Shown here piece after piece: positions 11,974-32,084 of a DNA stretch of 64,000 nucleotides. Every line of letters begins with the position of its first letter. The first letter of the stretch is position 1. The notes beneath the pieces are model-generated. The model saw only the letters and a program-made list of their open reading frames with translations, ran no database searches and was not told the DNA's origin. The stretch is from Thioalkalivibrio sp. ALJT (GTDB lineage: Bacteria > Pseudomonadota > Gammaproteobacteria > Ectothiorhodospirales > Ectothiorhodospiraceae). The DNA lies in NCBI RefSeq assembly GCF_000381825.1, contig NZ_KB907127.1, forward strand, positions 1 to 64,000, in the 5' to 3' direction. A program made the position numbers and the translations under genes.

Positions 11974-13395
11974 ATGGCCGCCAAGAAGTACTCCGCGGGT
12001 GTCAAGGATTACCGCGAAACCTACTGGATGCCGGAATACATGCCGCTGGATACCGATCTTCTGGCATGTTTCAAGATCACCCCGCAGCCGGGAATTGACC
12101 GCGAAGAAGCGGCAGCCGCTGTGGCGGCCGAATCGTCCACCGGTACCTGGACCACGGTGTGGACCGACCTCCTGACCGACATGGACTACTACAAGGGCCG
12201 TGCGTACTCCATCGAAGACGTGCCGGGTGACGACGAGTCCTTCTACGCGTTCATCGCCTACCCGATCGACCTGTTCGAAGAAGGTTCGATGGTCAACGTG
12301 TTCACCTCGCTGGTGGGCAACGTGTTCGGCTTCAAGGCCATCCGCGCCCTGCGTCTGGAAGACGTGCGTTTCCCGATGGCCTACGTGAAGACCTGTGGTG
12401 GTCCGCCCTCCGGTATCCAGGTCGAGCGTGACAAGCTGAACAAATACGGTCGTCCGATGCTGGGTTGCACGATCAAGCCGAAGCTGGGTCTGTCCGCGAA
12501 GAACTATGGCCGCGCCGTGTACGAGTGCCTGCGTGGCGGTCTCGACTTCACCAAGGATGACGAGAACATCAACTCGCAGCCGTTCATGCGCTGGCGTGAC
12601 CGCTTCGAGTTCGTCCAGGAAGCGACCGAAAAGGCCGAAGCCGAGACCGGTGAGCGCAAGGGTCACTACCTGAACGTCACTGCGCCGACCCCGGAAGAGA
12701 TGTACAAGCGTGCCGAGTTCGCCAAGGAGATTGGCGCGCCGATCATCATGCACGACTACATCACCGGTGGTTTCTGCGCCAACACGGGCCTGGCCAACTG
12801 GTGCCGCGACAACGGCGTGCTGCTGCACATCCACCGTGCGATGCACGCGGTGCTCGACCGCCATCCGAAGCACGGGATCCACTTCCGTGTGCTGGCCAAG
12901 ATCCTGCGTCTGTCCGGTGGTGACCACCTGCACACCGGCACCGTGGTCGGCAAGCTGGAAGGCGACCGCGCCGCAACCCTGGGCTGGATCGACCTGCTGC
13001 GCGAATCCTTCGTGCCGGAAGACCGCTCGCGCGGCATCTTCTTCGATCAGGACTGGGGCTCCATGCCGGGCGTGTTCGCCGTGGCCTCCGGTGGTATCCA
13101 CGTCTGGCACATGCCGGCCCTGGTTTCCATCTTCGGCGACGACTCCGTTCTGCAGTTCGGTGGCGGTACGCTGGGCCATCCGTGGGGCAACGCCCCGGGT
13201 GCGGCGGCCAACCGTGTCGCGCTGGAAGCCTGTGTCCAGGCGCGTAACGAAGGCCGGGACATCGAGCGCGAAGGCAAGGAGATCCTGACCCAGGCCGCTC
13301 AGCACAGCCCCGAGCTGAAGATCGCCATGGAAACGTGGAAAGAGATCAAGTTCGAGTTCGACACCGTCGACAAGCTGGACACCCAGCACAAGTGA
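11974..13395 (+). CDS. cbbL: RuBisCO large subunit, form IA
   Basis: The large subunit of ribulose-1,5-bisphosphate carboxylase/oxygenase fixes CO2 in the Calvin cycle inside the carboxysome. The 473-residue chain has the carbamylated lysine in [10 protein letters not shown] (Lys194), the catalytic lysine in GCTIKPKLG (Lys168), the metal ligands around it, and loop 6 within [11 protein letters not shown]. The overall sequence, the short N-terminus and the carboxysomal location place it in form IAc. AGGAGA precedes the ATG. It is the first gene of the cso operon, 68 bases before cbbS. Confidence 0.99.
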
Positions 13396-13403
13396 TCGCC
13401 CGA

Positions 13404-13432
13404 GTGCGGGTGGCCTGACGGGGCACCCGCAC
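13404..13432 (+). other. Stem-loop between cbbL and cbbS
   Basis: Nine-base arms (13404-13412 and 13424-13432) enclose an 11-base loop in the intercistronic gap. There is no T tract, so an mRNA-stabilising or processing hairpin is more likely than a terminator. Confidence 0.5.
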
Positions 13433-13463
13433 CCTGAAAGAACAAGAGCACAGGATTACCGAC

Positions 13464-13796
13464 ATGTCTGATATCCAGAACTTCAAGCAGTCGCAGAAGT
13501 ACGAGACCTTCTCCTACCTGCCGGAGATGAACGCCGACCAGGTGCGTAAGCAGATCGAATACTGCCTCGCCCAGGGCTGGAACCCGGCGATCGAGTACAG
13601 CGAGAAGGAAAACGCCATGGCCCACTACTGGTACATGTGGAAGCTGCCGTTCTTCGGTGAGCAGTCCGTGGAGTCCGTTCTGCAGGAAGTGGAAGAATGC
13701 CGCCGTGCCAATCCGGGCATGATGGTGCGATTCATCGCCTACGATAACTACGCCCAGAGCCAGGGCATGGCCTTCGTGGTCGACCGCGGCCGCTAA
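13464..13796 (+). CDS. cbbS: RuBisCO small subunit, form IA
   Basis: This 110-residue small subunit caps the L8S8 enzyme. The [23 protein letters not shown] region and the [12 protein letters not shown] block are standard. It is the second gene of the operon. In alpha-carboxysomes the groove between the large and small subunits is the site bound by the CsoS2 N-terminal repeats and by the CsoS3 N-terminal peptide, both encoded just downstream. It is followed by a 94-base gap with a stable hairpin. Confidence 0.98.
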
Positions 13797-13811
13797 GACG
13801 AGCCCCGGTAC

Positions 13812-13840
13812 CTGCCGGGCCCACGTAGCGGGTCCGGCAG
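13812..13840 (+). other. Intercistronic stem-loop between cbbS and csoS2
   Basis: An 11-base stem (13812-13822 with 13830-13840, one G-U pair) has a seven-base loop and no T tract. Its position after the two RuBisCO genes suggests differential mRNA stability or partial termination, giving more RuBisCO than shell mRNA. That role is inferred. Confidence 0.55.
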
Positions 13841-13890
13841 TTCAGTACAGCGTTATTTACCGTTGCTGCCGCCAACTGTAAGGAAGTGCC

Positions 13891-16887
13891 ATGAGTAATC
13901 CGACATCTGCGTCTGAAGGTCTCTCGGGTCGTGAACTCGCCCGGGCACGGCGCAAGGCCATGTCTCACAATGGCAAGGCTGCCGTGAAGTCGACCGGCCA
14001 AACCAAGGGGAGCCGCCGCTCCGCCGAGGCTGCGCGGGACGCGCGCCAGGCGAAGCCGAATCCCGCACCGGAGCCCCAGACGCGGGAGCCGGAGCAGCAC
14101 ATCAGCGAATCGTCGTCCCCGGTCTCCGTCGAGACCCGGGACTCCACCCCCGAGCGTCGGCCCGAGCCGGGCGCGCACGCGGGTGCCTCCAACGGCCGTC
14201 AGGCGGCCCTTGAGCGGCGCCGTAAAATGGCGCGCCAGGGCAAGAAAGCCGTCGGCCGTACCAATACCCGGGCGCGAGTCGCCGGCGGCATGGCGCGTGC
14301 GGGCGCCGACCGTTCGCGTCAACTCGAGGCCTTGGCTCAGTCGCAGAACGTGGAAGTCGACTGCTCGCACATGAGCGGTCGCGAGATCTGCCGTCTGCGG
14401 CGCCAGGCGCTTGCCACTGACGGCAAGAAGGCGATGGCGCCCGAACCGCGCCGGGAAGACCGCCTCAAGGGGCAGGAATCGGTGCCGTCCGATTCCGGCA
14501 AGGGTTGTGGTTGCGGTTGCAATGGCGAAAAGGCGGATGCCGATCCGGTCAGCGCGGCGGGGTCCGAGTCGACCACGGTCGCGACCGATCTCGATCAGCT
14601 GTGCGACAAGGTCGAGTCCGGGGGCGAGGCCGCCGGCCCGCATCCGATGATTTCCGAGGTGCGTGCCATCTGCATGGCCCGCCGCGAGGCCCTGGCGCAC
14701 AATGGCAAGCGGGCCATGCGCCGTCGTTTCAAGGGTGGCCAGGCGCGCGGCACGCTGCCACAGGAAGGCGCCTGGAAGGCCGCCAAGCGCAAGGGCATGT
14801 CGACCCGTGAGGTCGCCCGCCAGCGCCGGGAGGAACTGTGCAAGCTGGGGCGCGGCTCCTCCGAGCCCGGTCGGCCCTGCGGCCGTGTCCGTTCGGGGGA
14901 TGGTGATGCCCCGCCCAAGGTTGAAGAGGGCACTACGCTGGCCGGCAGTCACGTGAGCGGGACCCAGGTCGAACGTACGCAGAGCGTAACGGGCACCGAA
15001 GCCGGCAGTTGTTCGGCCATCACCGGTACCGAGTACCTCGGGGCCGAACACTACGAGCGCTACTGCGATACCCGCCCGGCGGCGAATGCGCCCAAGGTCG
15101 GGACCTCCCATACGACGAGTGGGCAGGCCGTTAGCGGTACCGAAGTGGGTCGCTCCACCCGTGTGACCGGTGACGAACGTGGCGCCTGCGAGGCGGTCAC
15201 GGGCACTGAATACCTCAGTAGCGAACAGTACGAAGGCTTCTGTGGTACGCGGCCACAGGCCGCACCGGCCCGCACCAGTGTCATGGTGACGCGTGAGGGC
15301 GAGGGTATTTCCGGCACTTCCGTGGGGCGCAGCCCCAAGGTGACCGGAGATGAATCCGGCTCCTGCCGCGATGTGACTGGCACCGAGTATCTGAATACCG
15401 CGGCGAGCGAGGTGCCCTGCAACACGGGAAAGCCGAGCGGAGCGCCGATGAAGGTCGGCGTCATGCACACCCTTCGCGGTCGTGAACTGACCGGTACCGA
15501 AGTCGGGCGCTCCGTGCACGTGACCGGTGATGAATATGGGAGCTGCAAGCCCGTGACAGGAACCGAATATCTGGGTCAGGAACAGTTCCAGGGCTTCTGC
15601 GGTACACGCCCGGAACCGGCACCCGCCAAGGTGCAGGAATCGCACACACTGGAAGACCAGAGCGTAACCGGCACCGCTGTTGGCCGTAGCGCCCGGGTTA
15701 CGGGTGACGAATCCGGGTCCTGCGCTTCGCTGACCGGCACGCCGTACTACAACCAGTCCGATTTCGGTGGTCTGTGCGAGCAGCCGGGTGGGCGCGGGGT
15801 TGCGAAGGTGGGCGTGATGCACACCCTGCGTGGCCGCGAAGTGTCCGGGACCCGGGTGGAAAGCTCGATCCGCGTGACCGGCGATGAATATGGCGGCTGC
15901 AAGCCGATCACCGGGACCGAATATGCCGGCTCGGAACACTATGATGCGTTCTGCGGTGGCAGCCGACCCGAGGCCGCCCCGGAAAAGGTGACCGTTGGCC
16001 GTACCTGGAACCAGCAGGCGGTGTCCGGCACCGCGGTGGGCCGTTCTGCCCGCGTCACCGGCGATGAATACGGTGCCTGCAAGCCGGTCAGCGGCACGGC
16101 CTACGTCGGCCCTGACCAGTACGAGCAGTTCTGCGAGCCGCGTGAGGCTGCAGTAGCCGATACGCGGGTCGCGGAGCGTCACTCGACGCCGGCGCACCCG
16201 GTCTCCGGTAGCCAGCCGGGCTATGACCAGCGCGTGACCGGGACCGAGCGTGGTGCTTGCCAGGATGTCTCGGGTGCCCCCTATGTGGGAGCCAACGAGT
16301 TCGCGCAGAGCTGCAGCAGTGCGGCGGGCAGTCTGCACCCGCGACTGCGCCCGGAAGGCATGCAGGACGTCGCCGCTCCGGTGGTGCCGCCGGTGGCCGA
16401 GCGGCCGATGCCGAACGCGGGCTTCAGCGTGAACACGCCGGCGCGGGCCGCGGCCGAACGCCGGGAACGGGTCACCGGAACGGCCTACGGCAGTAGCGGC
16501 AGCGTTACGGGCTCGATCAACAAAGCCATGGGTCTGGTCTCGGGTACCGAAGAGTTTCGCTATAACCGCGGGGAGCCGGCAGTGGCCGCCGCCGCGGTGG
16601 AGGAGCAACCGAAGCTCGGGGCCGAACGCGTGACCGTAAACGGAAGCAGCAACGGGGTCTCCATCACCGGTGATGACTGGCAGCGTGGCGATCGTATTAC
16701 CGGGACCGAGGGCTTCTCGACGCGACGTAACGCGACGCAGAAAGGCAATCCGCGCGGAGAAGGGCGTAGTGCTTATCTCAATCGCGAGCTCGAGCGCAAG
16801 GACGTCCCCCCGAGCAAGATCACGGGTTCTTCCGGAAACAGTGACGCCGGGTCGCTGGTGACGCTGTCCGGCGGCGCCCGCGGGTAA
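13891..16887 (+). CDS. csoS2: Carboxysome scaffold protein CsoS2
   Basis: CsoS2 is the disordered 998-residue scaffold that joins RuBisCO to the shell. Five basic N-repeats bind RuBisCO: GRELARARRKAMSHNGKAA (about 13-31), ALERRRKMARQGKKAV, GREICRLRRQALATDGKKA, ICMARREALAHNGKRA and REVARQRREELCKLGRG. Eight middle repeats follow (the last degenerate), each built on VSGT/VTGD/VTGTEY motifs with paired cysteines. A C-terminal region with VTGT, ITGDD, ITGTEGF and a final KITGSSG tail anchors to the shell. Unusual is a GCGCGC cysteine cluster near residue 207, between the third and fourth N-repeats. I see no canonical slippery heptamer for the short CsoS2A form known in some species. csoS3 begins 22 bases later. 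Confidence 0.97.
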   Translation: MSNPTSASEGLSGRELARARRKAMSHNGKAAVKSTGQTKGSRRSAEAARDARQAKPNPAPEPQTREPEQHISESSSPVSVETRDSTPERRPEPGAHAGASNGRQAALERRRKMARQGKKAVGRTNTRARVAGGMARAGADRSRQLEALAQSQNVEVDCSHMSGREICRLRRQALATDGKKAMAPEPRREDRLKGQESVPSDSGKGCGCGCNGEKADADPVSAAGSESTTVATDLDQLCDKVESGGEAAGPHPMISEVRAICMARREALAHNGKRAMRRRFKGGQARGTLPQEGAWKAAKRKGMSTREVARQRREELCKLGRGSSEPGRPCGRVRSGDGDAPPKVEEGTTLAGSHVSGTQVERTQSVTGTEAGSCSAITGTEYLGAEHYERYCDTRPAANAPKVGTSHTTSGQAVSGTEVGRSTRVTGDERGACEAVTGTEYLSSEQYEGFCGTRPQAAPARTSVMVTREGEGISGTSVGRSPKVTGDESGSCRDVTGTEYLNTAASEVPCNTGKPSGAPMKVGVMHTLRGRELTGTEVGRSVHVTGDEYGSCKPVTGTEYLGQEQFQGFCGTRPEPAPAKVQESHTLEDQSVTGTAVGRSARVTGDESGSCASLTGTPYYNQSDFGGLCEQPGGRGVAKVGVMHTLRGREVSGTRVESSIRVTGDEYGGCKPITGTEYAGSEHYDAFCGGSRPEAAPEKVTVGRTWNQQAVSGTAVGRSARVTGDEYGACKPVSGTAYVGPDQYEQFCEPREAAVADTRVAERHSTPAHPVSGSQPGYDQRVTGTERGACQDVSGAPYVGANEFAQSCSSAAGSLHPRLRPEGMQDVAAPVVPPVAERPMPNAGFSVNTPARAAAERRERVTGTAYGSSGSVTGSINKAMGLVSGTEEFRYNRGEPAVAAAAVEEQPKLGAERVTVNGSSNGVSITGDDWQRGDRITGTEGFSTRRNATQKGNPRGEGRSAYLNRELERKDVPPSKITGSSGNSDAGSLVTLSGGARG

Positions 16888-16909
16888 GGGCGGAAAGGTC
16901 CTGAACGCC

Positions 16910-18478
16910 ATGGTGCGCGGTCGTCGCAAAAGCAACGCCCTGGGTTCGCGTTTCGCGAAAGCCCGGGCGCTCGCTGCGAGCAAGTCCGCTGCGGTTGCCG
17001 CAGTAACGGCTCCGCAGCCGGCCCCGGCGCTTGCGCCGCGGGCGGCCGGTGGGTCGGGCGCGGCCCATCGTGGGCGTGACCTGCTGCCTGGCCATGCACT
17101 GGCGGACGTGGCCGCGAACGAACGCCTGCATGCGTTCGAACAGGGCTTCCGGGATCGTTTTTCGGAGCTGGTGCCGGTCCTGAAGGAGGTGCATTCGCTG
17201 CAGCACGAGGTGGATTTCGAGCAACGCGCGCAGGCCGTTGTGGAGCAGCGTCTGGGCTATCGGCTGCCGGAGAAGGCACTGGAGGACGCCTGGATCAATG
17301 ACCTCGATACGCGCGAGTTGTACCTGCACGGGACCTTCGAGCTGTTTGATCAGGTGGTCAATGAGTACTGGGCGGGTCGTGATGATCTGATCGCGGAGGC
17401 GGAGAGCGCGATTGCGTATTTCCTCGACTGCGATTTCCACGAAGTGGATATCTCGCCATGTTCCGACGGGCGCCTGCTGGGGCTGCGGCGGTTCATTCTG
17501 CGGCTGCCCGACCTGGCAGTGCGGGTGCGCAGTTATGCGGGTGCACAGTTCGATATCGAGGAAGACGTGCGTCACTGGACCAAGCGCGAGTTGCTGCGCT
17601 TCCGCGAGGGGCGACCGACGACCGCGGATGTGCCCAGCCGGTACCTGAAGATTGCTGCGTATCACTACAGCAGTGCGGATCCGACGCATCAGGGCTGTAC
17701 GGCACACGGCAGCAATGAACGCGATGCCGCGGACGGGGCCCTGCATCAACTGCGCGCATTTCGGCAGGCAATCGAGAACACCTACTGCTGTGGCGCGTCG
17801 GTGGATACGTTGCTGATCGGCGTGGATACGGACACGGATGCGATCAAGATCCACATTCCGGATGCCGACACGCGGATGAGCTTGTACCGGTTCGTGGACA
17901 GCGCAGACGTGTACCGTGCAACGCAGGGCCTGGACGAACAGACGGCATCGCTGCGGGTGTATCAGACGATCCAGGAGGCGATCCACCAGCAGGGGTGGGG
18001 ACGCGGCAATGGCGCGCCTCATGAAGGAATGCTGCGACTGATCTCGCGGCTGTTGCTGAACAATATCTCGCAGCTCGATTACGTCGCGCGTTACCACGGA
18101 GGGCATTACGCGGACGTGGGTCATCGCGAACGCGTGATCATCGTGGGGCAGGAGATCGAGGAGATGCAGGTGCGCAACTTCGCCTACTTTGCGCACCTGG
18201 AAACGATGGAAGAAGGCTCCGAGGGCATGGATGTCGGGGTCAACAAGATTTTTCGGAAACTGAATGTCGAGCGCGGTCTGCCGGTGCCGGTGGTGGTCCA
18301 TTACCGCTATGACCGCAAGGTGCCGGGATCGCGGGACCGGGCGGAGGCGCGCTGCCGTCGCATCCGGAACACGATCATGGACCGCTATCGGGATCTCGCG
18401 GAAAAGGGCCTTATCGGCTGCCACATGGTGATCCGCGACAAACGTAGCGGCAGCCGGCTCGAGACGCTGGCTGCGTAA
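16910..18478 (+). CDS. csoS3: Carboxysomal beta-type carbonic anhydrase CsoS3 (CsoSCA)
   Basis: This 522-residue lumenal carbonic anhydrase converts bicarbonate to CO2 beside RuBisCO. The active-site Cys-x-Asp-x-Arg motif is visible in SPCSDGRLLG (Cys184, Asp186, Arg188). The other likely zinc ligands are His252 (AAYHYSS) and Cys263 (QGCTAHG), whose spacing agrees with the characterised Halothiobacillus enzyme. The basic, disordered first 50 residues (MVRGRRKSNALGSRFAKAR) correspond to the RuBisCO-binding peptide known in that enzyme. The C-terminal half is the catalytically dead domain duplicate typical of the family. The csoS4A start lies 16 bases after the stop. Confidence 0.97.
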   Translation: MVRGRRKSNALGSRFAKARALAASKSAAVAAVTAPQPAPALAPRAAGGSGAAHRGRDLLPGHALADVAANERLHAFEQGFRDRFSELVPVLKEVHSLQHEVDFEQRAQAVVEQRLGYRLPEKALEDAWINDLDTRELYLHGTFELFDQVVNEYWAGRDDLIAEAESAIAYFLDCDFHEVDISPCSDGRLLGLRRFILRLPDLAVRVRSYAGAQFDIEEDVRHWTKRELLRFREGRPTTADVPSRYLKIAAYHYSSADPTHQGCTAHGSNERDAADGALHQLRAFRQAIENTYCCGASVDTLLIGVDTDTDAIKIHIPDADTRMSLYRFVDSADVYRATQGLDEQTASLRVYQTIQEAIHQQGWGRGNGAPHEGMLRLISRLLLNNISQLDYVARYHGGHYADVGHRERVIIVGQEIEEMQVRNFAYFAHLETMEEGSEGMDVGVNKIFRKLNVERGLPVPVVVHYRYDRKVPGSRDRAEARCRRIRNTIMDRYRDLAEKGLIGCHMVIRDKRSGSRLETLAA

Positions 18479-18494
18479 GTACACGGGAACGGGA

Positions 18495-18746
18495 ATGAAG
18501 ATCTGCAGGGTTGAAAAGACGCTGGTTTCGACCAACCGCATCCGCGATCTGGGGCACCGGCCGCTGCTGGTGGTCCAGGAAAAGGCCGGCGGGCCGCGGA
18601 CGGTAGCGGTGGATGCGGTCGGTTGCGTACCCGGTGACTGGGTGATCGTGGTGGGGAGTTCGGCGGCGCGCGAGGCAGCCGGCGACAAGTCTTACCCCAG
18701 TGATGCGACGATTGTGGGCATTATCGATTACTGGGAGGAGCAGTAG
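18495..18746 (+). CDS. csoS4A: Carboxysome shell vertex pentamer CsoS4A
   Basis: This 83-residue bacterial microcompartment vertex protein (BMC-P, EutN/CcmL fold) caps the icosahedral vertices of the shell. The core AVDAVGCVPGDWVIVVGSSAAREA, with the GDWV turn at the pentamer pore, is diagnostic. Length is normal. The csoS4B ATG lies four bases after its stop. Confidence 0.95.
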   Translation: MKICRVEKTLVSTNRIRDLGHRPLLVVQEKAGGPRTVAVDAVGCVPGDWVIVVGSSAAREAAGDKSYPSDATIVGIIDYWEEQ

Positions 18747-18750
18747 CCCG

Positions 18751-19083
18751 ATGGAGATCATGCAGGTGCAGGATGAACTGGTCGTCACTCGTCGTGTAGA
18801 CGGGCTGAAGAGCATGTCACTGCGCGTGCTGGTAGACCAGAAGGGTGCGCGCAATGTCGCGGTGGATACCGTGGGGGCGCATCCTGGCAACTGGGTGTTC
18901 ACGATTAGCGGGTCGGCCGCGCGTCACGCGCTGGACGACAACAGCATTCTGACCGATCTGACGATCGGCGGCATCATCGACCACTGGGACGATGGTGGAA
19001 AGAAGACGGAAGGGTCTAAGGACGAGGCTGGACGAGACCAGACCGATGCACAGCGCTCTGCTGGTTCCCCCAAGGCGGCGTGA
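18751..19083 (+). CDS. csoS4B: Carboxysome shell vertex pentamer CsoS4B with long C-terminal tail
   Basis: This second BMC-P pentamer subunit has the core VAVDTVGAHPGNWVFTISGSAARHA ending near residue 80 with IGGIIDHWDD. I chose the ATG at 18751 because the longer in-frame version starting at 18700 lies inside csoS4A. At 110 residues it is some 25-30 longer than usual. The extra tail is hydrophilic, rich in Lys, Asp, Glu, Gly and Ser, and likely disordered. It could project from the vertex; the function is unknown. Confidence 0.93.
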   Translation: MEIMQVQDELVVTRRVDGLKSMSLRVLVDQKGARNVAVDTVGAHPGNWVFTISGSAARHALDDNSILTDLTIGGIIDHWDDGGKKTEGSKDEAGRDQTDAQRSAGSPKAA

Positions 19084-19124
19084 GCGTCATTTTTTGAAAA
19101 ACTGTATATCCAGGAGAAAAGACA

Positions 19125-19424
19125 ATGGCAACTGAACGTTTTGGTGTGGCGCTGGGCATGATCGAGACCCGTGGTCTGGTGCCGGCGATTGAAGCCGCCG
19201 ATGCGATGACCAAGGCCTCTGAAGTGCGCCTGATTGGTCGTCAGTTCGTCGGTGGTGGCTACGTGACCGTGCTGGTCCGTGGTGAAACCGGCGCCGTGAA
19301 CGCCGCCGTGCGTGCGGGTGCGGATTCCTGCGAGCGCGTGGGCGACGGCCTGGTGGCTGCGCACATCATCGCCCGTGTGCATTCCGAAGTGGAAAGCATC
19401 CTGCCCGAGCAGGTCGAAAAGTAA
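19125..19424 (+). CDS. csoS1: Carboxysome shell hexamer CsoS1, copy 1
   Basis: This 99-residue single-domain BMC-H protein forms the hexameric tiles of the shell facets. ALGMIETRGLVPAIEAADAM and the pore loop RQFVGGGYVTV are diagnostic; the FVGGG loop lines the central pore proposed to pass bicarbonate and RuBP. It is the first of three paralogues whose start codons are exactly 331 bases apart. It begins MATERFGV where the others begin MASENFGV. AGGAGA precedes the ATG. Confidence 0.97.
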   Translation: MATERFGVALGMIETRGLVPAIEAADAMTKASEVRLIGRQFVGGGYVTVLVRGETGAVNAAVRAGADSCERVGDGLVAAHIIARVHSEVESILPEQVEK

Positions 19425-19455
19425 TTCATCAGTAACGCTTGATAGGAGTTGAGTA

Positions 19456-19755
19456 ATGGCTAGCGAAAACTTTGGTGTGGCCCTCGGCATGATCGAGACC
19501 CGTGGTCTGGTGCCGGCGATTGAAGCCGCCGATGCGATGACCAAGGCCTCCGAAGTGCGCCTGATCGGGCGTCAGTTCGTGGGTGGCGGCTACGTGACCG
19601 TGCTGGTCCGTGGTGAAACCGGTGCCGTGAACGCCGCCGTGCGTGCGGGTGCGGATTCCTGCGAGCGCGTGGGCGACGGCCTGGTGGCTGCACACATCAT
19701 TGCCCGTGTGCATTCCGAAGTGGAAAGCATCCTGCCCGAGCAGGTCGAAAAGTAA
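19456..19755 (+). CDS. csoS1: Carboxysome shell hexamer CsoS1, copy 2
   Basis: This 99-residue BMC-H paralogue is identical to copy 1 apart from the first residues (MASENFGV in place of MATERFGV). The 31-base spacer before it is repeated without change before copy 3, including the ribosome binding site AGGAG. It has the same pore loop and fold. Which copy corresponds to the csoS1A, B or C of other species cannot be assigned from sequence alone. Confidence 0.97.
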   Translation: MASENFGVALGMIETRGLVPAIEAADAMTKASEVRLIGRQFVGGGYVTVLVRGETGAVNAAVRAGADSCERVGDGLVAAHIIARVHSEVESILPEQVEK

Positions 19756-19786
19756 TTCATCAGTAACGCTTGATAGGAGTTGAGTA

Positions 19787-20101
19787 ATGGCTAGCGAAAA
19801 CTTTGGTGTGGCCCTCGGCATGATCGAGACCCGTGGTCTGGTGCCGGCGATTGAAGCCGCCGATGCGATGACCAAGGCCTCCGAAGTGCGCCTGATCGGG
19901 CGTCAGTTCGTGGGTGGCGGCTACGTGACCGTGCTGGTCCGTGGTGAAACCGGCGCCGTGAACGCCGCCGTGCGTGCGGGTGCGGATTCCTGCGAGCGCG
20001 TGGGTGACGGCCTGGTGGCTGCACATATCATTGCGCGCGTGCACTCCGAGGTGGAAGGCATCCTGCCGACCTCTCCGAGCGCGACCGGTTCGGCCAGCTG
20101 A
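19787..20101 (+). CDS. csoS1: Carboxysome shell hexamer CsoS1, copy 3
   Basis: The third BMC-H paralogue has 104 residues. It matches copy 2 until about residue 90 and then ends in a different, Ser/Thr/Ala-rich tail (TSPSATGSAS) in place of EQVEK. A distinct, longer C-terminus on one of three copies also marks CsoS1B in Halothiobacillus, so this is probably the csoS1B equivalent. The ferritin-like gene follows ten bases after the stop. Confidence 0.96.
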   Translation: MASENFGVALGMIETRGLVPAIEAADAMTKASEVRLIGRQFVGGGYVTVLVRGETGAVNAAVRAGADSCERVGDGLVAAHIIARVHSEVEGILPTSPSATGSAS

Positions 20102-20111
20102 GGCAACGTCC

Positions 20112-20534
20112 ATGTCCGATGCACGGATCGTGGGGTATCTGAACCGCGCGGTAGCGCATGAGCTGTCGGCAGTTCAGCAGTACCTGGCCCAGGCGCGGTT
20201 GACCGCGCTGTGGGGCATGACCGATATCAGTGACTGCCTGCGGCGGGATGCACAGGAAGAACTGGACCATGCGGATCGTTTCATGACCCGCATGTTCCAC
20301 TACGGCGTTGCACCGAACGGCTCACAGCTGGCGCCCGTGCGCCTGGGGCGCTCCATGGCCGAATTGATGGCGCATAATCGCGAGCTGGAGATGGAGGCGG
20401 TTCGTCTGTATGACGAGGCGGCGGTCTATTGCCGGCGAGTGGGTGCGCAGGATGACGCCGTGCTGTTCGAGAGCATCCTGGCGGATGAGCTGGAGCATGT
20501 GCGCGAGATCGATGCCCAGGGGCACCCGGCCTGA
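20112..20534 (+). CDS. Bacterioferritin-like (ferritin-fold) protein of the cso operon
   Basis: This 140-residue four-helix ferritin-like protein has carboxylate/histidine motifs spaced as in di-iron sites: HELSAVQQY, EELDHADRF, ELEMEAVRLY and DELEHVREI. Bacterioferritin-like genes are a recurrent but poorly understood member of alpha-carboxysome operons. Iron or redox handling near the carboxysome is inferred only. I chose the ATG at 20112, after the csoS1 stop, over the in-frame extension that overlaps csoS1. Confidence 0.88.
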   Translation: MSDARIVGYLNRAVAHELSAVQQYLAQARLTALWGMTDISDCLRRDAQEELDHADRFMTRMFHYGVAPNGSQLAPVRLGRSMAELMAHNRELEMEAVRLYDEAAVYCRRVGAQDDAVLFESILADELEHVREIDAQGHPA

Positions 20535-20567
20535 CGGCCGGGCGCAGCAACACGAATGGAGTTGGCA

Positions 20568-20849
20568 ATGGCGGATACCGACCTCGTGGTCCCGGCCGGG
20601 TGGGAACCCGGCAAGGGGACCTCGGCATCCATGAGCAAGCAGTTCACCTTCGAGCGTTACGGCATTACGCGGCAGTTTCTGGATCGCGTGGCCGAACTCT
20701 CGGAGCAGGACGGGTACCATCCGAATATCAGCTTTGGAACCACGTACGTGAATATCACCATCGATGCCCGCGATGGCGAGCAGCTCGGTGAGGCCGACAA
20801 GAACTTTGCGGTGGAGGTCGATCGTCTGGCGGAGGCCACCACAGGGTGA
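20568..20849 (+). CDS. acRAF, pterin dehydratase-like RuBisCO assembly factor
   Basis: This 93-residue protein has the fold of pterin-4a-carbinolamine dehydratase (FTFERYGITRQFLDRVAELSEQDGYHPNISF). The catalytic His-His-Pro signature of true dehydratases is reduced to a single YHPN. That fits the carboxysomal acRAF branch, which acts as a RuBisCO assembly chaperone rather than a pterin enzyme. I chose the ATG at 20568 because GGAG precedes it; the ATG at 20556 overlaps that ribosome binding site. It lies between the ferritin-like gene and mcdA, the usual position. Confidence 0.88.
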   Translation: MADTDLVVPAGWEPGKGTSASMSKQFTFERYGITRQFLDRVAELSEQDGYHPNISFGTTYVNITIDARDGEQLGEADKNFAVEVDRLAEATTG

Positions 20850-20911
20850 GGCCCGGGCGTTGTTGATTCCGAGGGCGACGATGCCGGCGCTCATCGGCAG
20901 GAGGGACTGGC

Positions 20912-21547
20912 GTGTCTTCTAGGGTAATCTCGGTCGTGAACCAGAAAGGGGGTACCGGCAAGACCACCCTGACCATGAACCTTGCGGCCGGGCTGGCGCG
21001 TCGTGGTCGCACGCTGGTGGTGGATGCGGATCCCCAGGGTTCGGCCGGTCAGTGGGCGCGGATGGCATCGGAAGCGCGCCCGTTCGCGACGTCGGTTTTC
21101 GCGGTGGCGGGTCCGCTGGACCGGGAGTTGAAGGCACTGCGCAAGGACTACGAAAACATCGTGGTCGATTGTCCGCCGACGCTGGAGGGAGGCGCGGTGA
21201 ACGGGGCCCTGGCGGGCTCGGATGAAGTCCTGATTCCGGTGTTGCCGTCGCCCGTCGATCTCTGGGGCAGTGTACGCATGGGGCGCGGTCTGGAGGAGGC
21301 GCGGATGCGCAACCCGGATCTGCGCCCCTTTATTGTGGTCAATCAGCTCGAGGTCCGCAGTGCGCTGTCGCGGGCGATGAAACATGCACTGATGGAGATC
21401 GAGATCCCGGCTCTGGAGCAGACCCTGAGGCGCCGGGCCATCTACCGGCGGGCCGCGCTGGAAGGCTGTTCCGTCTATGACCTGGGCAAACCGGGCGCGG
21501 CGGCAGCGGCCGAGATCGAAGCCATCATCGAGGAGGTGTCGCAATGA
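20912..21547 (+). CDS. mcdA: ParA-type ATPase McdA, carboxysome positioning
   Basis: This 211-residue ParA/MinD-family ATPase has the deviant Walker A NQKGGTGKTTLTMNLA (about 10-25), VVDADPQGSAGQW as the A' motif and VVDCPPTLEG as Walker B. It is small, with no N-terminal helix-turn-helix, as in McdA proteins that bind the nucleoid and space carboxysomes. It starts with GTG after a strong AGGAGGG. Its stop overlaps the start of the next gene by four bases (ATGA), so it is translationally coupled to the McdB candidate. Confidence 0.88.
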   Translation: MSSRVISVVNQKGGTGKTTLTMNLAAGLARRGRTLVVDADPQGSAGQWARMASEARPFATSVFAVAGPLDRELKALRKDYENIVVDCPPTLEGGAVNGALAGSDEVLIPVLPSPVDLWGSVRMGRGLEEARMRNPDLRPFIVVNQLEVRSALSRAMKHALMEIEIPALEQTLRRRAIYRRAALEGCSVYDLGKPGAAAAAEIEAIIEEVSQ

Positions 21548-21888
21548 GTAATCTGCAGGACAAACTGGCAGCTGGCGTGCGCAGTGCTCGCGAGAATCAG
21601 GACGGGGCGCAGGAAAAGCCCGGGACAACCGCGGCGCAAAAGGATAGCAGTCAGGAGCCGGCGAGTAGCGCCAGCCGCGCGGCGCCCAGCACCAAGGCGG
21701 CGGCGACCAAGCCGGGTACGACGGAGAAGAAGGCACCTGTGGGCAAACGCCCGGGGACTACGCGTAGCAAGGCCCGCAAGGACACGGCGGGTGGCGGGAG
21801 CACGGGTGGTGCGTCCGGGAGCGGCGGGGCCGGGAGGTCGAAAGGCAAGGGCTCCGACCTGCATCCGGAACGGATCTGGCCGGACTGA
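21544..21888 (+). CDS. mcdB: Disordered McdB-type carboxysome adaptor
   Basis: This 114-residue protein is almost wholly low-complexity, rich in Lys, Ala, Gly, Ser and Thr, and ends in HPERIWPD. Alpha-carboxysome McdB proteins are short, intrinsically disordered and defined by an invariant tryptophan near the C-terminus, in the gene position directly after mcdA. All of these features match. It would load onto the carboxysome and stimulate McdA ATPase activity. A hairpin with a short T tract follows, ending this part of the operon. Confidence 0.85.
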   Translation: MSNLQDKLAAGVRSARENQDGAQEKPGTTAAQKDSSQEPASSASRAAPSTKAAATKPGTTEKKAPVGKRPGTTRSKARKDTAGGGSTGGASGSGGAGRSKGKGSDLHPERIWPD

Positions 21889-21901
21889 GGCTCGCGCCAT
21901 C

Positions 21902-21926
21902 GGCCGGGGCTTGCCCCGGCCTTTCT
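21902..21926 (+). terminator. Probable terminator between mcdB and cbbQ
   Basis: Nine-base GC-rich arms (21902-21910 and 21913-21921), effectively closing to a four-base loop, are followed by TTTCT. The T tract is short, so some readthrough into cbbQ is likely. Confidence 0.6.
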
Positions 21927-21943
21927 GATTGAGGAGTCGAATC

Positions 21944-22747
21944 ATGCAGGATGATCTGCGCGATCACATGATCACCGAGGAGCCGTACTACCAGCCGACC
22001 GCGGACGAGGTCGAGCTGTATGAGGCGGCTTATTCGGTGCGTATGCCGATGATGCTCAAGGGCCCGACCGGATGTGGCAAGACGCGTTTCGTGGAGCATA
22101 TGGCATGGAAGCTGGGCAAGCCTCTGATAACGGTAGCCTGTAACGAGGACATGACGGCCTCCGATCTCGTCGGGCGTTACCTGCTCGATGCCAACGGTAC
22201 GCGCTGGCAGGACGGTCCGCTGACGCTGGCCGCCCGCCACGGAGCGATCTGCTATCTGGATGAGATCGTCGAGGCGCGTCAGGACACTACGGTGGTGATC
22301 CACCCGCTGACAGATAACCGGCGCGTGCTGCCACTGGAGAAAAAGGGGGAGATGGTTGAGGCCCATCCGGATTTCCAGGTGGTGATCTCCTACAACCCCG
22401 GCTATCAGAGCCTGATGAAGGACTTGAAGGAATCCACCAAGCAGCGCTTCGGCGCGCTGGATTTCAATTATCCGGACCACGAGACGGAAACGCGCATTGT
22501 GGCGCACGAAGGCGGTGTGTCCGAGGAAATGGCGGGCAAGCTGGTGAGCGTCGCCGAGCGCGCGCGCAACCTCAAGGGGCACGGGCTGGATGAGGGCATC
22601 TCGACCCGCATGCTGGTGTATGCCGCCTCGCTGATTGCCAAACGAGTGGAGCCGCTGGCCGCGTGCCGCATGGCGCTGGTGCGCCCGATCACGGACGATC
22701 CGGATATGCGCGACGCGCTCGATTCCGCCGTCACGACCTTCTTCTAG
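21944..22747 (+). CDS. cbbQ: RuBisCO activase AAA+ subunit CbbQ
   Basis: This 267-residue MoxR-type AAA+ ATPase forms a hexamer and, with CbbO, removes inhibitory sugar phosphates from RuBisCO. Walker A is GPTGCGKT (40-47), Walker B lies in [11 protein letters not shown], and the arginine-finger region follows [16 protein letters not shown] chose the ATG at 21944 as the family start, preceded by GAGGAG. The cbbO ATG lies 20 bases after its stop. This Q/O pair next to the cso operon corresponds to the activase linked to form IA enzymes. Confidence 0.95.
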
Positions 22748-22767
22748 CCCGTACCGCCGGCGCACCC

Positions 22768-25086
22768 ATGAGCGTTCATCTGGAGGACTACCAGGACCTC
22801 CTCGCGGACCTGGGAGACCACGCCGCCGAGGTGCTGGAGGCGTCGTGGCAGGAGGCCTCGCGGGCATTCAGCGCGGGCGGCCTGAAACGCTACTACCTGG
22901 AAGGGGCCCGCAGCCTGCATGCCCTCGGGCGCGGGACCGAGATGGTGGTCGCGTTCATCCAGGAGACGCCCGATCTGGCCCATGAACTGGGTGAGGATGC
23001 GGTCGCCGACCTGGTCAGCTCCGCGGTCAAGATGTATTCCAAGACCTCGGCGGCAGTGATCACCCTGTTGATCTCGACCAGCCCGGTCGCGGCGCGGCGG
23101 CTGGGCGATGCCACGCTGTTCGGTGGTTACCTGCGCCTGGTGGATCATCTGCTGGGTCAGGCCCCGCGCGGGGTGCGGCCGATGCTGGAGCACCTGGACG
23201 AACTGTTGTCGCAGCTGACTCTGGGGGGGCTGCGGCGCTGGGCATCCTGGGGCGCGCAGGCCCACCGGACGGATCTGGAAGCGCAGGTTGCGTACTTCGG
23301 GCTGCAGTCGCCGGAATCGCAGTCGGTGTTCCAGAAGGAACGCCGCGGCACATTGTTCGTGGATGTGCAGCGGCGCATCAACCTCTATCTGCGCTCCCTG
23401 TGGGCGCGAGATTTCTTCATGCGCCCGACCAGCGGCGACTTCGAATCGCGCGAGGGCTACCGGCCCTATATCGAAGGCTTCACGATGTTCCTGCCGGATG
23501 CCTTCGACGACTGGGAGGGCCTGACCGGGCTGGACCTGTACCGGGCGGCCGCCGCACACGCGGCGGCGCATGTGGTGCACACGCGCGAGATGCAGCCGGA
23601 GGAGGCGCCGCGGGGCGTGACCGGCATCCTGACCGAACTGTTCGAGGATGCGCGCGTGGAGGCTCTGGCGGTACGCGCATTCCCCGGTTTGCGCCATCTC
23701 TGGACTCCGCTGCACACGGCCACGGCGAGTGATGGCGAAGGCCCGCAGGCCATACTGGCGCGGACCGCGCGGGCGCTGCTGGACCCGGACTATGCCGACG
23801 ATCATCCCTTCGTGCGCCAAGCGCGGGCTGCATTCGCGGCGGTCGAGGACCTGGAGGTATCGGGGCTGGCTGGCGAGCTGGCGGCGCAGCTGGGTCCGGA
23901 GTTTCCGGAGAGGGGTTACATGAACCCGCGCCAGGTGGCGCCGGAGATCCTGTATCGGGATGATAACCGTTACATCTGGGCGTTCGGCCGCGAGGAGGAA
24001 GACTTGGAGGTGCTGGCGGCGCACGGCAGCAAACAGGAGCGCTTCTACGTCACGCCGATGGAGATGATCAATACGCTGGATGTGGAGTTCGCCGGGGACG
24101 ATGCCCAGCAGATCATGGTGCTGGCGACGGAGTGGTTCCGCGACGGCGAGGAGGAGAGCATCAATCAGCAGGAGGGCAAGGAACCCCTCTCGCTGCCGTA
24201 TCACTATCACGAGTGGGACTACCAGATGCAGCTGGAGCGGCCGCACTGGACGACGCTCCTGGAACGGCGGCCGAAGAAGGGCGACGTGGCCGCGATCGAG
24301 GCCATTAACGAGAAACACAAGCCGCTGATCGCCCGTCTGAAATTCCTGATTGAGGCGATGCAGCCGCAGGGCGTGCAGCGCCTGCGCAAACAGGCCGAAG
24401 GCGACGAGCTGGACGTGAACGCCCTGGTCGACGCGCAGCTCGACCTGCGTATGCGGCGTCAGCCGGACGAGCGGATCTACGTGCGCAATGTCCGCCAGGT
24501 ACGCGATCTCTCGGTCCTGGTGCTGCTCGATCTGTCGGAATCGACCAACGAGATGGTGCGGGGCACCGAGACCAGCGTGGTCCAGCTGGCACGGGAGGCG
24601 ACCGCGTTGCTGGGAGGCGCGATCTCGCGTATTGGCGATCCGTTCGCGATCCATGGCTTTGCCTCCGACGGGCGCCATGATGTGGAGTACTACCGCTTCA
24701 AGGACTTCGATGCCCCGTATGACGATAATGCCAAGGCGCGCCTGGCCGGTATGCAGGGGCAGCTGTCCACGCGCATGGGCACGGCGGTTCGCCACGCCGG
24801 TCACTTGCTGGAGCAGCAGGGTACCCAGAAGAAGCTGCTGCTGATCATCACGGACGGCGAACCGGCGGATACCGATGTACGTGACCCCCAGTACCTGCGC
24901 CAGGATGCGAAGCGGGCAGTGGAAGAGGTGGGGCGCAACGGGGTCTATACCTTCTGTATCAGTCTGGACCCGAATGCGGATGAATACGTCGAGCGGATCT
25001 TCGGCGCACAGCACTTTATGGTGCTGGACCAGATCGAGCGGTTGCCGGAAAAGCTGCCGATGCTGTACGCCGGGTTGACCCGGTAG
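22768..25086 (+). CDS. cbbO: RuBisCO activase adaptor CbbO (VWA domain)
   Basis: This 772-residue adaptor subunit bridges the CbbQ hexamer and RuBisCO. The N-terminal two thirds are the CbbO-specific helical region. The C-terminal von Willebrand A domain (about 580-765) carries the MIDAS motif DLSES, starting at Asp588, which in characterised CbbO engages RuBisCO. I chose the ATG at 22768, 20 bases after cbbQ; the longer in-frame extension lies within cbbQ. Length is typical. Confidence 0.95.
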   Translation: MSVHLEDYQDLLADLGDHAAEVLEASWQEASRAFSAGGLKRYYLEGARSLHALGRGTEMVVAFIQETPDLAHELGEDAVADLVSSAVKMYSKTSAAVITLLISTSPVAARRLGDATLFGGYLRLVDHLLGQAPRGVRPMLEHLDELLSQLTLGGLRRWASWGAQAHRTDLEAQVAYFGLQSPESQSVFQKERRGTLFVDVQRRINLYLRSLWARDFFMRPTSGDFESREGYRPYIEGFTMFLPDAFDDWEGLTGLDLYRAAAAHAAAHVVHTREMQPEEAPRGVTGILTELFEDARVEALAVRAFPGLRHLWTPLHTATASDGEGPQAILARTARALLDPDYADDHPFVRQARAAFAAVEDLEVSGLAGELAAQLGPEFPERGYMNPRQVAPEILYRDDNRYIWAFGREEEDLEVLAAHGSKQERFYVTPMEMINTLDVEFAGDDAQQIMVLATEWFRDGEEESINQQEGKEPLSLPYHYHEWDYQMQLERPHWTTLLERRPKKGDVAAIEAINEKHKPLIARLKFLIEAMQPQGVQRLRKQAEGDELDVNALVDAQLDLRMRRQPDERIYVRNVRQVRDLSVLVLLDLSESTNEMVRGTETSVVQLAREATALLGGAISRIGDPFAIHGFASDGRHDVEYYRFKDFDAPYDDNAKARLAGMQGQLSTRMGTAVRHAGHLLEQQGTQKKLLLIITDGEPADTDVRDPQYLRQDAKRAVEEVGRNGVYTFCISLDPNADEYVERIFGAQHFMVLDQIERLPEKLPMLYAGLTR

Positions 25087-25104
25087 CATCTGCAGGAGGC
25101 GAGG

Positions 25105-26127
25105 GTGGGCAGCCAGGGTTCGGGCAAGGATGGCAGTCTCCCGCAGGTAATGCTGAAGTCGGAGCTGCCGGCGCACTTGATCCGGCACGCGACTCTGCGG
25201 CAGTTACAGGTGTTCGAGGCGATTGTGCGTCTGGGCAGCTTTACCCGCGCGGCGGAGGAGCTGCATCTGACCCAGCCCACGGTCTCGATCCAGATCAAGA
25301 AATTGACTACGGCGCTGGGTCTGCCGCTGTTCGAATATGTCGGACGCAAGGCCTTCCCGACCGAGGTGGGGCTGCTGCTGTATGACACCTGCCGCGAGAT
25401 GCTGGGGGCGCTCACTAACCTGGAGATGAAGCTGGCGGAAATGCACGGCCTCAAGCGCGGCCGGCTGCGCCTGGCGGTCATCACCACGGCCCAGTATTTC
25501 GCGCCCAGCATCCTGGGGCAGTTCGCGCGGCGCTATCCGGATGTGGAACTGTCGCTGGAGGTCAGCAACTTCGACCGGGTGCTGGAGCGGCTGGCCAATA
25601 ATGACGACGATCTCTACATCATCGGTCACGTGCCGGAGCGCCTGACCGATGTCGCGGTGCACCCGTTCGCGCCGAACCCGCTGGTGGTGATGGCCAATCG
25701 CGACCACCCGCTGGCCGGACGCCGCAACATCCCGCTCAGGGAACTGGAGGGGGAAACCTTCCTGATGCGCGAACCGGGCTCCGGCATCCGCGAGTCGACC
25801 CTGCGGCTGTTCGAGGAGCAGGGCATCAACCCGCCAGTGCGCATGGAGCTCGGGTCCAACGAGGCGATCAAGCATGCGGTGATCGGGGGGCTGGGTATTG
25901 CCGTGCTGTCCCTGCATACCCTCAGTGCGGAAGGCGCCGATGGTCCGGTCACGCTGCTCGATGTCGAGCACTTTCCGATCCACCGGCAGTGGCACATCGT
26001 CTACCCGAAAAAGAAGGTCCTGTCGGTGGTGGCACAGACCTTCCTCGATTTTGCGATCCAGGACGAGGCGCGCCTGCGCGCCCAGGTGGAAGACATGCTG
26101 GCCGCGTTCAAGGCGCAGGCCGCCTGA
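25105..26127 (+). CDS. cbbR: LysR-type regulator CbbR
   Basis: This 340-residue LysR-family protein has the winged helix-turn-helix at about 31-90 (LRQLQVFEAIVRLGSFTRAAEEL, LTQPTVSIQIKKL) and the periplasmic-binding-protein-like effector domain after that. Family resemblance (VGRKAFPTEVG, LAVITTAQYFAPSILGQF) and its place right after cbbO indicate CbbR, activator of Calvin-cycle genes. AGGAGG at 25094-25099, five bases before the GTG, decides the start. It is not divergent from cbbL as in many autotrophs but lies some 13 kb downstream on the same strand. Confidence 0.88.
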   Translation: MGSQGSGKDGSLPQVMLKSELPAHLIRHATLRQLQVFEAIVRLGSFTRAAEELHLTQPTVSIQIKKLTTALGLPLFEYVGRKAFPTEVGLLLYDTCREMLGALTNLEMKLAEMHGLKRGRLRLAVITTAQYFAPSILGQFARRYPDVELSLEVSNFDRVLERLANNDDDLYIIGHVPERLTDVAVHPFAPNPLVVMANRDHPLAGRRNIPLRELEGETFLMREPGSGIRESTLRLFEEQGINPPVRMELGSNEAIKHAVIGGLGIAVLSLHTLSAEGADGPVTLLDVEHFPIHRQWHIVYPKKKVLSVVAQTFLDFAIQDEARLRAQVEDMLAAFKAQAA

Positions 26128-26216
26128 CGCCCCGCTTCCTTGCATGACAGGGCCCGGACGGGGCCGTACAATTCAGCATCTATCCGGCCCTGAGGGGCCG
26201 TTGTCGGAGACACGCA

Positions 26217-26783
26217 GTGAGCACGCAGACCCGCACCCGTATCAGTGGTACCCAGTTCATCGACGCCGATGAGGCCCCGCGTTCGCGCCTGAGCCTGAGC
26301 GCATCGCACCGTGACCCGTATCACCCGGTCACCGGTACTGGCGGCGACCCGAATTTCGGCGCCATTGATACCCCGGTCAACGAGAGCTGCGTGGTCTGTG
26401 CCCCGGCTACCCGCCGCCTGGCGGAGGAACTGTTCGATGCCTGGAACGATGCCCTGCAGACTGGCGATGCATATCGCGTAACTGCACTCTATGCCGAGGA
26501 CGCCGTGCTGCTGCCGACGGTCTCGAATGTCCCGCGCACCTCTCACGCCGAGATCCAGGATTACTTCGAACATTTCCTGGAGAAGAAGCCCTTCGGCACC
26601 ATCAATTCGCGGAACGTGAAACTCGGCTGCAACAAGCTGACCGATGCCGGCACGTACACCTTCCGGGTGACCGATGGCGGCGAGACCAAGGAGGTTCCGG
26701 CTCGCTATACCTTCGTCTACGAAAACCGCGACGGCGCGTGGAAGATCGTCCACCACCACTCCTCGATGATGCCCACGGCATAG
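26217..26783 (+). CDS. Iota-class carbonic anhydrase (SgcJ/EcaC, CaMKII-AD fold) with CsoS2-like N-terminal motifs
   Basis: The last 125 or so residues of this 188-residue protein match iota-class carbonic anhydrases: LFDAWNDALQTGD, YAEDAVLLPTVSNVPR, IQDYFEHFL, GCNKLTDAGTYTF, ARYTFVY and the C-terminal HHHSSMMP. Such enzymes interconvert CO2 and bicarbonate, in some cases without metal. Bacterial members usually have an export signal, whereas this one has none. Instead, residues 1-60 are polar and disordered-looking, with ISGT at 9-12 and VTGT at 38-41, the motif type repeated in CsoS2. The GTG start follows GGAGA. It lies 89 bases after cbbR and is closed by a terminator. Catalysis and targeting are inferred; a non-catalytic SnoaL-like role is possible. 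Confidence 0.8.
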   Translation: MSTQTRTRISGTQFIDADEAPRSRLSLSASHRDPYHPVTGTGGDPNFGAIDTPVNESCVVCAPATRRLAEELFDAWNDALQTGDAYRVTALYAEDAVLLPTVSNVPRTSHAEIQDYFEHFLEKKPFGTINSRNVKLGCNKLTDAGTYTFRVTDGGETKEVPARYTFVYENRDGAWKIVHHHSSMMPTA

Positions 26784-26862: not shown

Positions 26863-26889
26863 CGAAGGCCCGGCAGTGCCGGGCCTTCG
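26863..26889 (-). terminator. Stem-loop downstream of ettA
   Basis: Twelve-base arms (26863-26874 and 26878-26889) lie 19 bases beyond the ettA stop on the minus strand, with the sequence ACTTT following on that strand. This is the likely ettA terminator. Its outer edge adjoins a run of 15 G on the plus strand (26889-26903). Confidence 0.65.
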
Positions 26890-26907
26890 GGGGGGGGGGG
26901 GGGCAGA

Positions 26908-31349: not shown

Positions 31350-31685
31350 TGTGAATATGTATTCCGGTTTTGAAGGGGCCTGGGCGTGTTGTTCGGGTTG
31401 ATGTGGTGATGTCACATAATTAGCGCGACGTCGGGAATCAGAAGGGCCGTTCCATTGGTGGGCAGGCCCTTCAGCTTGTCGACACGTTGGTCGAGAACGA
31501 GACTGGGTAACAGCCTTTCAAGCGTGGCTCCCGAGCATTCGGATGGTCAGGGTGGTTGGGAAGTCAATGCCAACGCACCCTCAGGGGTTCGCCTGATCGT
31601 GCTCGAACAGACGTCAGAGCTGCGTTTCGGTGACCGTAGGGCTTCATTGCTCGACAGCTTTGCCAGTGCCGCTGACAATGGCGCC
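31350..31685 (+). other. Gap without a supported gene
   Basis: These 336 bases separate the defence-like pair from the crcB genes; GC content rises along them. An 8-base inverted repeat with a 16-base loop (31442-31449 and 31466-31473) is present, without a T tract. I looked for a fluoride riboswitch before crcB and could not make out its conserved core. Confidence 0.5.
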
Positions 31686-32084
31686 ATGATCGCGTGGTGG
31701 GAGGGCCTGTTGCTGGTGGGAGCCGGGGGTGCGCTGGGGGGGCTGGCGCGCTTCTGGCTGTCGCAGTGGATCGACAACCGCACCGGGGGCGGCCGCTTCC
31801 CGTGGGGGACGCTGGCGGTGAATGCCTCCGGTGCGCTGCTGATCGGGCTGGCGCTGGGCTGGGCCTCGGGGCCGGCGTGGACCTCCTGGCTCTGGCTGCT
31901 GCTGGTGGTGGGGGTGCTCGGCAGCTTCACCACGGTCTCCTCGTTCAGCCTGCAGGTGGTCGGGGTCGCGGAGCAGGACGGCCTGCGCCCGGCGTTGGTC
32001 TACGTCCTGCTGACCCTGGGCGGGGGGCTGGCGCTGGTGGCCATCGGGCACGCGCTGGGCCGCCTGGCAGGGGGCGCGGCGTGA
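31686..32084 (+). CDS. crcB: Fluoride channel CrcB/Fluc, subunit 1
   Basis: This 132-residue membrane protein has four transmembrane segments and the Fluc signatures GGALGGLARFWLS, FPWGTLAVNASGALLIG (with the conserved Asn) and GVLGSFTTVSSFSLQ. It exports fluoride ions passively. I chose the ATG at 31686 because the in-frame extension to 31455 is not membrane protein sequence. The second crcB overlaps its stop by four bases, so the pair probably forms a two-gene heterodimeric channel. Confidence 0.92.
   Translation: MIAWWEGLLLVGAGGALGGLARFWLSQWIDNRTGGGRFPWGTLAVNASGALLIGLALGWASGPAWTSWLWLLLVVGVLGSFTTVSSFSLQVVGVAEQDGLRPALVYVLLTLGGGLALVAIGHALGRLAGGAA

Follow-up and report, generated by a model that had tools for sequence, protein, structure and literature searches.

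We analysed a stretch of 64,000 nucleotides from Thioalkalivibrio sp. ALJT (contig NZ_KB907127.1, positions 1 to 64,000 of the forward strand; hereafter the window), in which the open reading frame (ORF) at 26217-26783 encodes an iota-class carbonic anhydrase (iota-CA) domain, with predicted carbonic anhydrase (CA) activity, behind a disordered tail of about 57 residues that carries two motifs of the CsoS2 type. We consider it likely that this protein is a second carboxysomal CA and that its tail is a built-in targeting peptide binding the inner CsoS1 face of the shell; binding, encapsulation and activity are the parts of this reading that we infer. The CO2-fixing compartment would then probably hold two unrelated carbonic anhydrases instead of one. 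In the samples searched, the tailed iota-CA has so far been found only in genomes with carboxysome genes.

The iota-CA domain and its motif-bearing tail

The gene and the parts of its product are as follows.

26217..26783, + strand: tailed iota-class carbonic anhydrase gene (ORF and domain matches; 188 amino acids, GTG start)
26206..26209, + strand: ribosome binding site GGAG, 7 bases upstream of the GTG start
26217..26387, + strand: N-terminal disordered tail with CsoS2-like motifs, residues 1-57 (predicted local distance difference test, pLDDT, <50 in 1-44 and 46-58)
26241..26252, + strand: first motif ISGT, residues 9-12 ([IV][ST]GT in 14/14 non-redundant tails)
26328..26339, + strand: second motif VTGT, residues 38-41 (aligned [VI][TS]G in 12/14 non-redundant tails)
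26364..26375, + strand: IDTP element at the end of the tail (D51 invariant)
26397..26774, + strand: iota-CA (CaMKII_AD/SnoaL-like) domain, residues 61-186

The first-pass annotation had read the C-terminal part as an iota-CA domain, and this is borne out by the domain and structure searches. PF08332 matches residues 71-186 (2.8e-22, 79.7 bits versus a cut-off of 22.1), this ORF being the single match to that family in the genome, and the sequence matches in PDB include 3h51 as the best (2.1e-38) and the solved iota-CA 7c5x (4.2e-07), with which the HHSS of the window protein aligns. In the AlphaFold2 model the domain is confidently predicted from about residue 61 onwards and has 3h51 again as its top structural match in PDB (1.7e-17, 54% identity), while every residue of 1-58 except one has a pLDDT below 50. 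In the domain alignment that also served later domain comparisons, and in which the row for locus L090 is a 47-residue fragment, T101, Y116, H180, H181, S182 and S183 are conserved at 90% or more. The active-site residues of the iota-CA all2909 include T106 and Y124 (PMC8132391), and the match of the window residues to these two is putative. No signal peptide is apparent by eye in the window protein; signal peptides are predicted for most bacterial COG4337 proteins (PMC8132391).

The polar extension with ISGT at residues 9-12 and VTGT at 38-41 was verified at these positions. We compared 33 tails, of which 14 with less than 80% identity make up a non-redundant set. The first motif is kept as [IV][ST]GTx[FG][IL] in all 14; its fourth place is T in 31/33 tails and S in 2/33, and its sixth is F in 28/33 and G in 5/33. 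S26, R32 and D51 are invariant among the 14, and many of the remaining tail columns are variable. Paired [VI][TS]G motifs at a distance of 20-34 residues are present in 31/33 tails versus 0/845 background N-termini, taken from mechanically called ORFs of at least 150 residues after removal of 43 CsoS2- or CA-like ones from 888. The same spacing is met in 13 of 9,646 background windows of sixty residues, and residue shuffles of the window tail produce such a pair in 0.2% of trials. The earlier caveat that so short a motif could occur by chance is thus answered by the background, the shuffles and the conservation across the clade. Judged by its conservation, the tail is not a chance feature, because the 33 tailed proteins, which come from several families, group in a single clade, and the first motif is kept in 14/14.

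Association with carboxysome genes

Full-length orthologues were found in 18 of 47 genomes of the order. CsoS2_M is present in all 18, sharing a contig with the CA gene in 17 and lying on a different one in G044, and 19 more of the 47 genomes have CsoS2 and lack the CA. A contig scan with the 18 orthologues gave 61 loci, 25 matching through the tail and 36 only from residue 53 or later. The 25 come from Thioalkalivibrio, Guyparkeria, Halothiobacillus metagenome-assembled genomes (MAGs), Methylonatrum, Ectothiorhodospiraceae, Chromatiales and unclassified MAGs; the scan, run with two narrow patterns, did not reach more diverged tailed CAs that were found later. In a sample of 369 genomes drawn evenly from the class, 34 match and 10 are tailed. 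CsoS2 is present in 9 of these 10 and in 72 of the 369, an association with a Fisher p of 2e-6 that is overstated because of common descent. In the phylum sample, 42/398 genomes match, and the match runs through both motifs in the window's own genome only. Among the tail-less matches, 10 of 24 from the class and 20 of 41 from the phylum were read, and the tail was found in none of these 30, with the CA reading uncertain for L151-L153. Most have a leader-like N-terminus by eye, and one, L120, has VSG inside the leader. At another locus, L076 from a Thiohalocapsa MAG, we observed a shortened copy, in which a VSGMRFL start is fused to the latter half of the CA domain.

Counting each genome once gives 35 tailed genomes, and CsoS2 is present in 34 of them. 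The exception, G104, is a MAG of 84% completeness in which CsoS2 and CsoSCA were not found; it has a BMC-matching gene, which we take to be CsoS1D-like, beside a cbbR-like gene, and on that account we do not count it as a tailed genome devoid of carboxysomes. CsoS2 was found in 0 of the 35 searched genomes with tail-less relatives (36 loci, the genome of L071 not included). Conversely, PF08332 scores over its cut-off in 7 of 80 CsoS2-positive genomes, in 8 proteins, all of them tailed; 70 of the 80 genomes had been covered with an earlier profile and the other ten were already known to lack the CA, so that the count is a re-check with a different profile and not a new sample. The expectation that the extension would be confined to genomes with cso genes therefore agrees with these counts. 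So does the proposed coexistence with CsoSCA: the window has csoSCA at 16910-18478, and CsoSCA is present in 32/35 tailed genomes (not found in G099, G104 and G162), which makes two-CA carboxysomes look usual in the tailed clade.

The position of the gene varies more than its tail. As in the window, where the CA gene follows cbbR at the end of the cso-cbbQ-cbbO-cbbR block just as the first-pass annotation had it, tblastn with the proteins of the window places it last in the cso block, behind cbbR, in Thioalkalivibrio, Methylonatrum and the Ectothiorhodospiraceae MAGs, with cbbO as the preceding gene instead in T. denitrificans, T. sulfidiphilus and G043. Cso genes were not found in the flanks of the Guyparkeria, Halothiobacillus MAG, L042-L045 and G162 loci, apart from a CbbR-like match near L040, the contigs of L042-L044 being short on one or both sides. 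The CA gene lies about 725 kb from csoS2 in G313, about 535 kb in G406 and about 81 kb in G162, and on another contig in G203. The tail is retained where the gene sits away from cso, and the suggestion that it is confined to the neighbourhood of cso operons is rejected by Guyparkeria, the Halothiobacillus MAGs, G313, G406 and G162. That the tail follows CsoS2 and not gene position speaks for a carboxysome link.

In a tree of the CA domain (130 columns, midpoint root, many forks open, L076 omitted), the 33 tailed proteins and a second copy from G039 form one group (100/98), with 36 tail-less proteins outside it. The G039 copy, a tandem duplicate in T. thiocyanoxidans (L102, 13817-14203), has a hydrophobic, signal-peptide-like leader (by eye) in place of the tail; it is a natural tail swap and an exception to the rule that a carboxysome genome has a tailed CA. 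In G099 (L093, 6840-9324), two tailed iota-CAs flank a CsoS1D-like gene and a gene that by eye resembles an XTP pyrophosphatase, beside the cso block. CsoSCA was not found in this genome, in agreement with a published account of Thiomicrospira loci, from which csoSCA is missing (PMC9164163).

Likeness to CsoS2 and competing readings

CsoS2 is shown to bind CsoS1A through its (V/I)(T/S)G motifs, with a reported contact to His79 and a conserved Tyr placed at the hexamer junction (PMC11365436). Both CsoS2 repeats and the tail carry such motifs in a disordered chain, and in an hhalign comparison of the tail profile with the CsoS2 middle repeats (score 19.25, E 0.00094) window residues 7-20 align on the third VTG of the repeat (AITGTEYLG...), i.e., the first tail motif falls on VTGTEYL. 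None of 440 column shuffles (0/40 and 0/400) scored as high. Two [VI][TS]GT motifs within 45 residues occur in 5 of 1,264 ORFs besides labelled CsoS2 and iota-CA, and all five are CsoS2 fragments by position and sequence. At the place where the tail has F or G, the VTGT-type sites of ten CsoS2 proteins have Y in 54/112 and G in 10/112. The likeness rests on short motifs, from which shell binding is predicted; the tail is fused to an enzyme, its homology to CsoS2 beyond the motif is not significant, and PF12288 gave no match to the window protein at E 0.01.

In the mechanism that we propose, the flexible tail would grip the inner CsoS1 face of the shell through its two motifs, like the CsoS2 repeats. 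If the domain is dimeric as 3h51, two tails would present four motifs, so that weak contacts would add up. Inside the carboxysome the enzyme would turn bicarbonate into CO2 next to Rubisco, in parallel to CsoSCA, if it runs in that direction. The backup role that the first-pass annotation suggested for when CsoSCA is limiting is a speculative one. A tail-less enzyme would be free in the cytosol, draining the bicarbonate pool. For bacteria with carboxysomes, a CA in the cytosol is regarded as a hazard through bicarbonate leakage (PMC10880623), so that the retention of a CA lacking an export signal argues for encapsulation, provided that the enzyme is active.

Several observations weigh against docking by the tail and against a carboxysomal role. 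The hhalign probability is low (22%), and the 49 CsoS2 repeats were chosen by motif pattern, so that the alignment tests the column order of the tail and not homology. The CsoS2 C-terminal repeats match the tail weakly (1/40 and 0/40 shuffles as good, with 1 and 7 columns aligned). Run against the 1,264 ORFs in hmmsearch, the tail profile returned no significant non-CA match, CsoS2 reaching E of about 1 at best: the two top non-CA ORFs resemble fragments of the CsoS2 C-terminus (E 1.0 and 1.2), and below them come unrelated ORFs mixed with CsoS2 pieces. CsoS2 repeats have motif triplets 8 apart and the conserved Tyr, whereas the tail has two motifs 29 residues apart and F or G for the Tyr. The second G099 copy lacks the second motif, and G237 has VTQ in its place and VSG elsewhere in the tail. 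The idea of a basic, shell-binding tail fails for the window protein, whose tail is acidic (pI 5.4) where the C-terminus of CsoS2 is basic; pI values of four other tails, in five of 33 computed, range from 8.0 to 10.8. The genome counts are not independent, because the tail has one origin, and G437, the genome of L076 in the tail-less set, has two BMC matches, with CsoS2 and CsoSCA not found there. As to the enzyme, NTF2-like non-CA proteins such as ketosteroid isomerase have the same fold among the structural matches, and no solved iota-CA is among the 50 listed for the model. For 3h51, the nearest structure, activity as a CA is unconfirmed, and bicarbonate dehydration, the direction needed here, was not clearly found in the COG4337 iota-CAs tested (PMC8132391).

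It is unlikely, in our judgement, that the enzyme is encapsulated while the tail binds Rubisco or CsoS2 and not the shell, as is thought for the N-terminus of CsoSCA. CsoSCA is described as having disordered N-terminal regions free for Rubisco binding, and is suggested to bind both shell and Rubisco (PMC12646314), and the conservation of S26, R32 and D51 outside the VTG motif would suit such a partner. However, [IV][ST]G motifs are known shell binders (PMC11365436), and inspection of the tail by eye shows none of the R..RR..GK repeats with which the N-terminal part of CsoS2 arranges Rubisco (PMC12918739). Activity in the cytosol or outside the shell, e.g., trapping leaked CO2 with the tail docked on the outer face, would accord with the lack of a visible export signal, with a promoter-like site of the gene's own, and with the report that the COG4337 iota-CAs tested only hydrate CO2 (PMC8132391); the leakage risk held to attend a cytosolic CA (PMC10880623) and the reported carboxysomal state of the Thiomicrospira relatives (PMC12628692) make it very improbable. 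A chance origin of the motifs, in a tail unconnected with carboxysomes, could be argued from the shortness of the motif and the non-significant hmmsearch link to CsoS2, yet the empty background of 845 N-termini, the conservation in a diverged clade and the occurrence so far only with carboxysome genes leave this reading almost no credit.

Locus, known systems and implications

The remaining features of the locus are listed below.

11974..26127, + strand: block cbbL-cbbS-csoS2-csoSCA-csoS4A-csoS4B-csoS1x3-bfr-acRAF-parA-hyp-cbbQ-cbbO-cbbR, preceding the CA gene (csoS1 by BMC match; cbbS, csoS4, bfr and acRAF are putative names)
13891..16887, + strand: csoS2, 998 amino acids, 28 [VI][TS]G sites (domain match)
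16910..18478, + strand: csoSCA, three Pfam domains, all nearly complete (domain match)
26144..26172, + strand: promoter-like site ATGACA-17-TACAAT (consensus match only)
26863..26889, - strand: hairpin resembling a terminator, separating the CA gene from the ABC-F gene downstream (1 found against 0.6 expected from shuffled sequence)

The promoter-like site lies directly upstream of the CA gene, which may therefore be expressed apart from the operon, and similar bases are present upstream of some Thioalkalivibrio orthologues. A run of 15 G right after the hairpin (26889-26903) could be an assembly weak spot. Within the cso block, the three tandem csoS1 copies (19125-20101) are almost identical, some relatives having two (tblastn), and a ParA-type ATPase followed by a short low-complexity protein (20912-21888) is possibly a McdA/McdB carboxysome-positioning pair. 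At 31455-32497, an adjacent pair of ORFs resembles CrcB/Fluc fluoride channel subunits by eye.

Wieschollek et al. reportedly detected in 2024 the Thiomicrospira iota-CA in carboxysome enrichments, and its disruption is said to have abolished growth under low CO2. For Thiomicrospira the literature already describes an iota-CA of the carboxysome, which takes the place of CsoSCA (PMC12628692). In both systems an iota-class CA is tied to alpha-carboxysomes, and the Thiomicrospira-like G099 has two members of the tailed clade; the difference is that the window genome keeps an intact CsoSCA beside its iota-CA. The window gene lies beside the carboxysome locus, as in the Thiomicrospira type, which does not hold for all clade members. 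CsoSCA, the beta-type carboxysomal CA, shares with the tailed iota-CA the CA function, the genomes and a disordered N-terminal region, but belongs to an unrelated family with different Pfam domains. The tail-less bacterial PF08332 proteins (3h51; SgcJ/EcaC in plasmid annotation) have the same domain, at 54% identity for 3h51, but a leader-like N-terminus or none, no tail, and CsoS2 in none of the 35 genomes searched. The CsoS2 C-terminus brings GFP into shells, better with more repeats (PMC7595155), so that CsoS2-type motifs take cargo to the shell there too; that encapsulation peptide is an engineered fusion of 278 residues, whereas the tail described here is natural and short.

In the accessible part of PMC10880623, two Hydrogenovibrio genomes both have CsoSCA and the iota-CA is 'not present in both'; a genome with both CA genes may thus already be tabulated there, with no carboxysome role drawn in that part. 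The accessible part of a T. thiocyanoxidans transcriptome study names only CsoSCA as carboxysomal CA (PMC5744179). A CsoS2-like tail on an iota-CA was not named in the titles and abstract openings, mostly of open-access literature, on iota-CA with carboxysomes, CsoS2 motifs and Thioalkalivibrio carboxysomes.

For the broader scenario we see about even chances. A cargo enzyme would have evolved a short and portable tail of its own that mimics CsoS2 and docks directly on the alpha-carboxysome shell, most such carboxysomes would hold two unrelated CAs, one zinc-dependent and one possibly metal-free, and in the Thiomicrospira line and G162 the tailed enzyme would have taken over, with CsoSCA lost. 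A concern in print is that genomes of carboxysome bacteria seem to encode harmful cytosolic CAs (PMC10880623); some of these apparently cytosolic enzymes may be carboxysomal. The two-CA state is a possible route to the loss of CsoSCA in Thiomicrospira. If the reading is true, a compact natural tail that copies CsoS2 would provide a testable rule to predict and engineer the cargo of alpha-carboxysomes.
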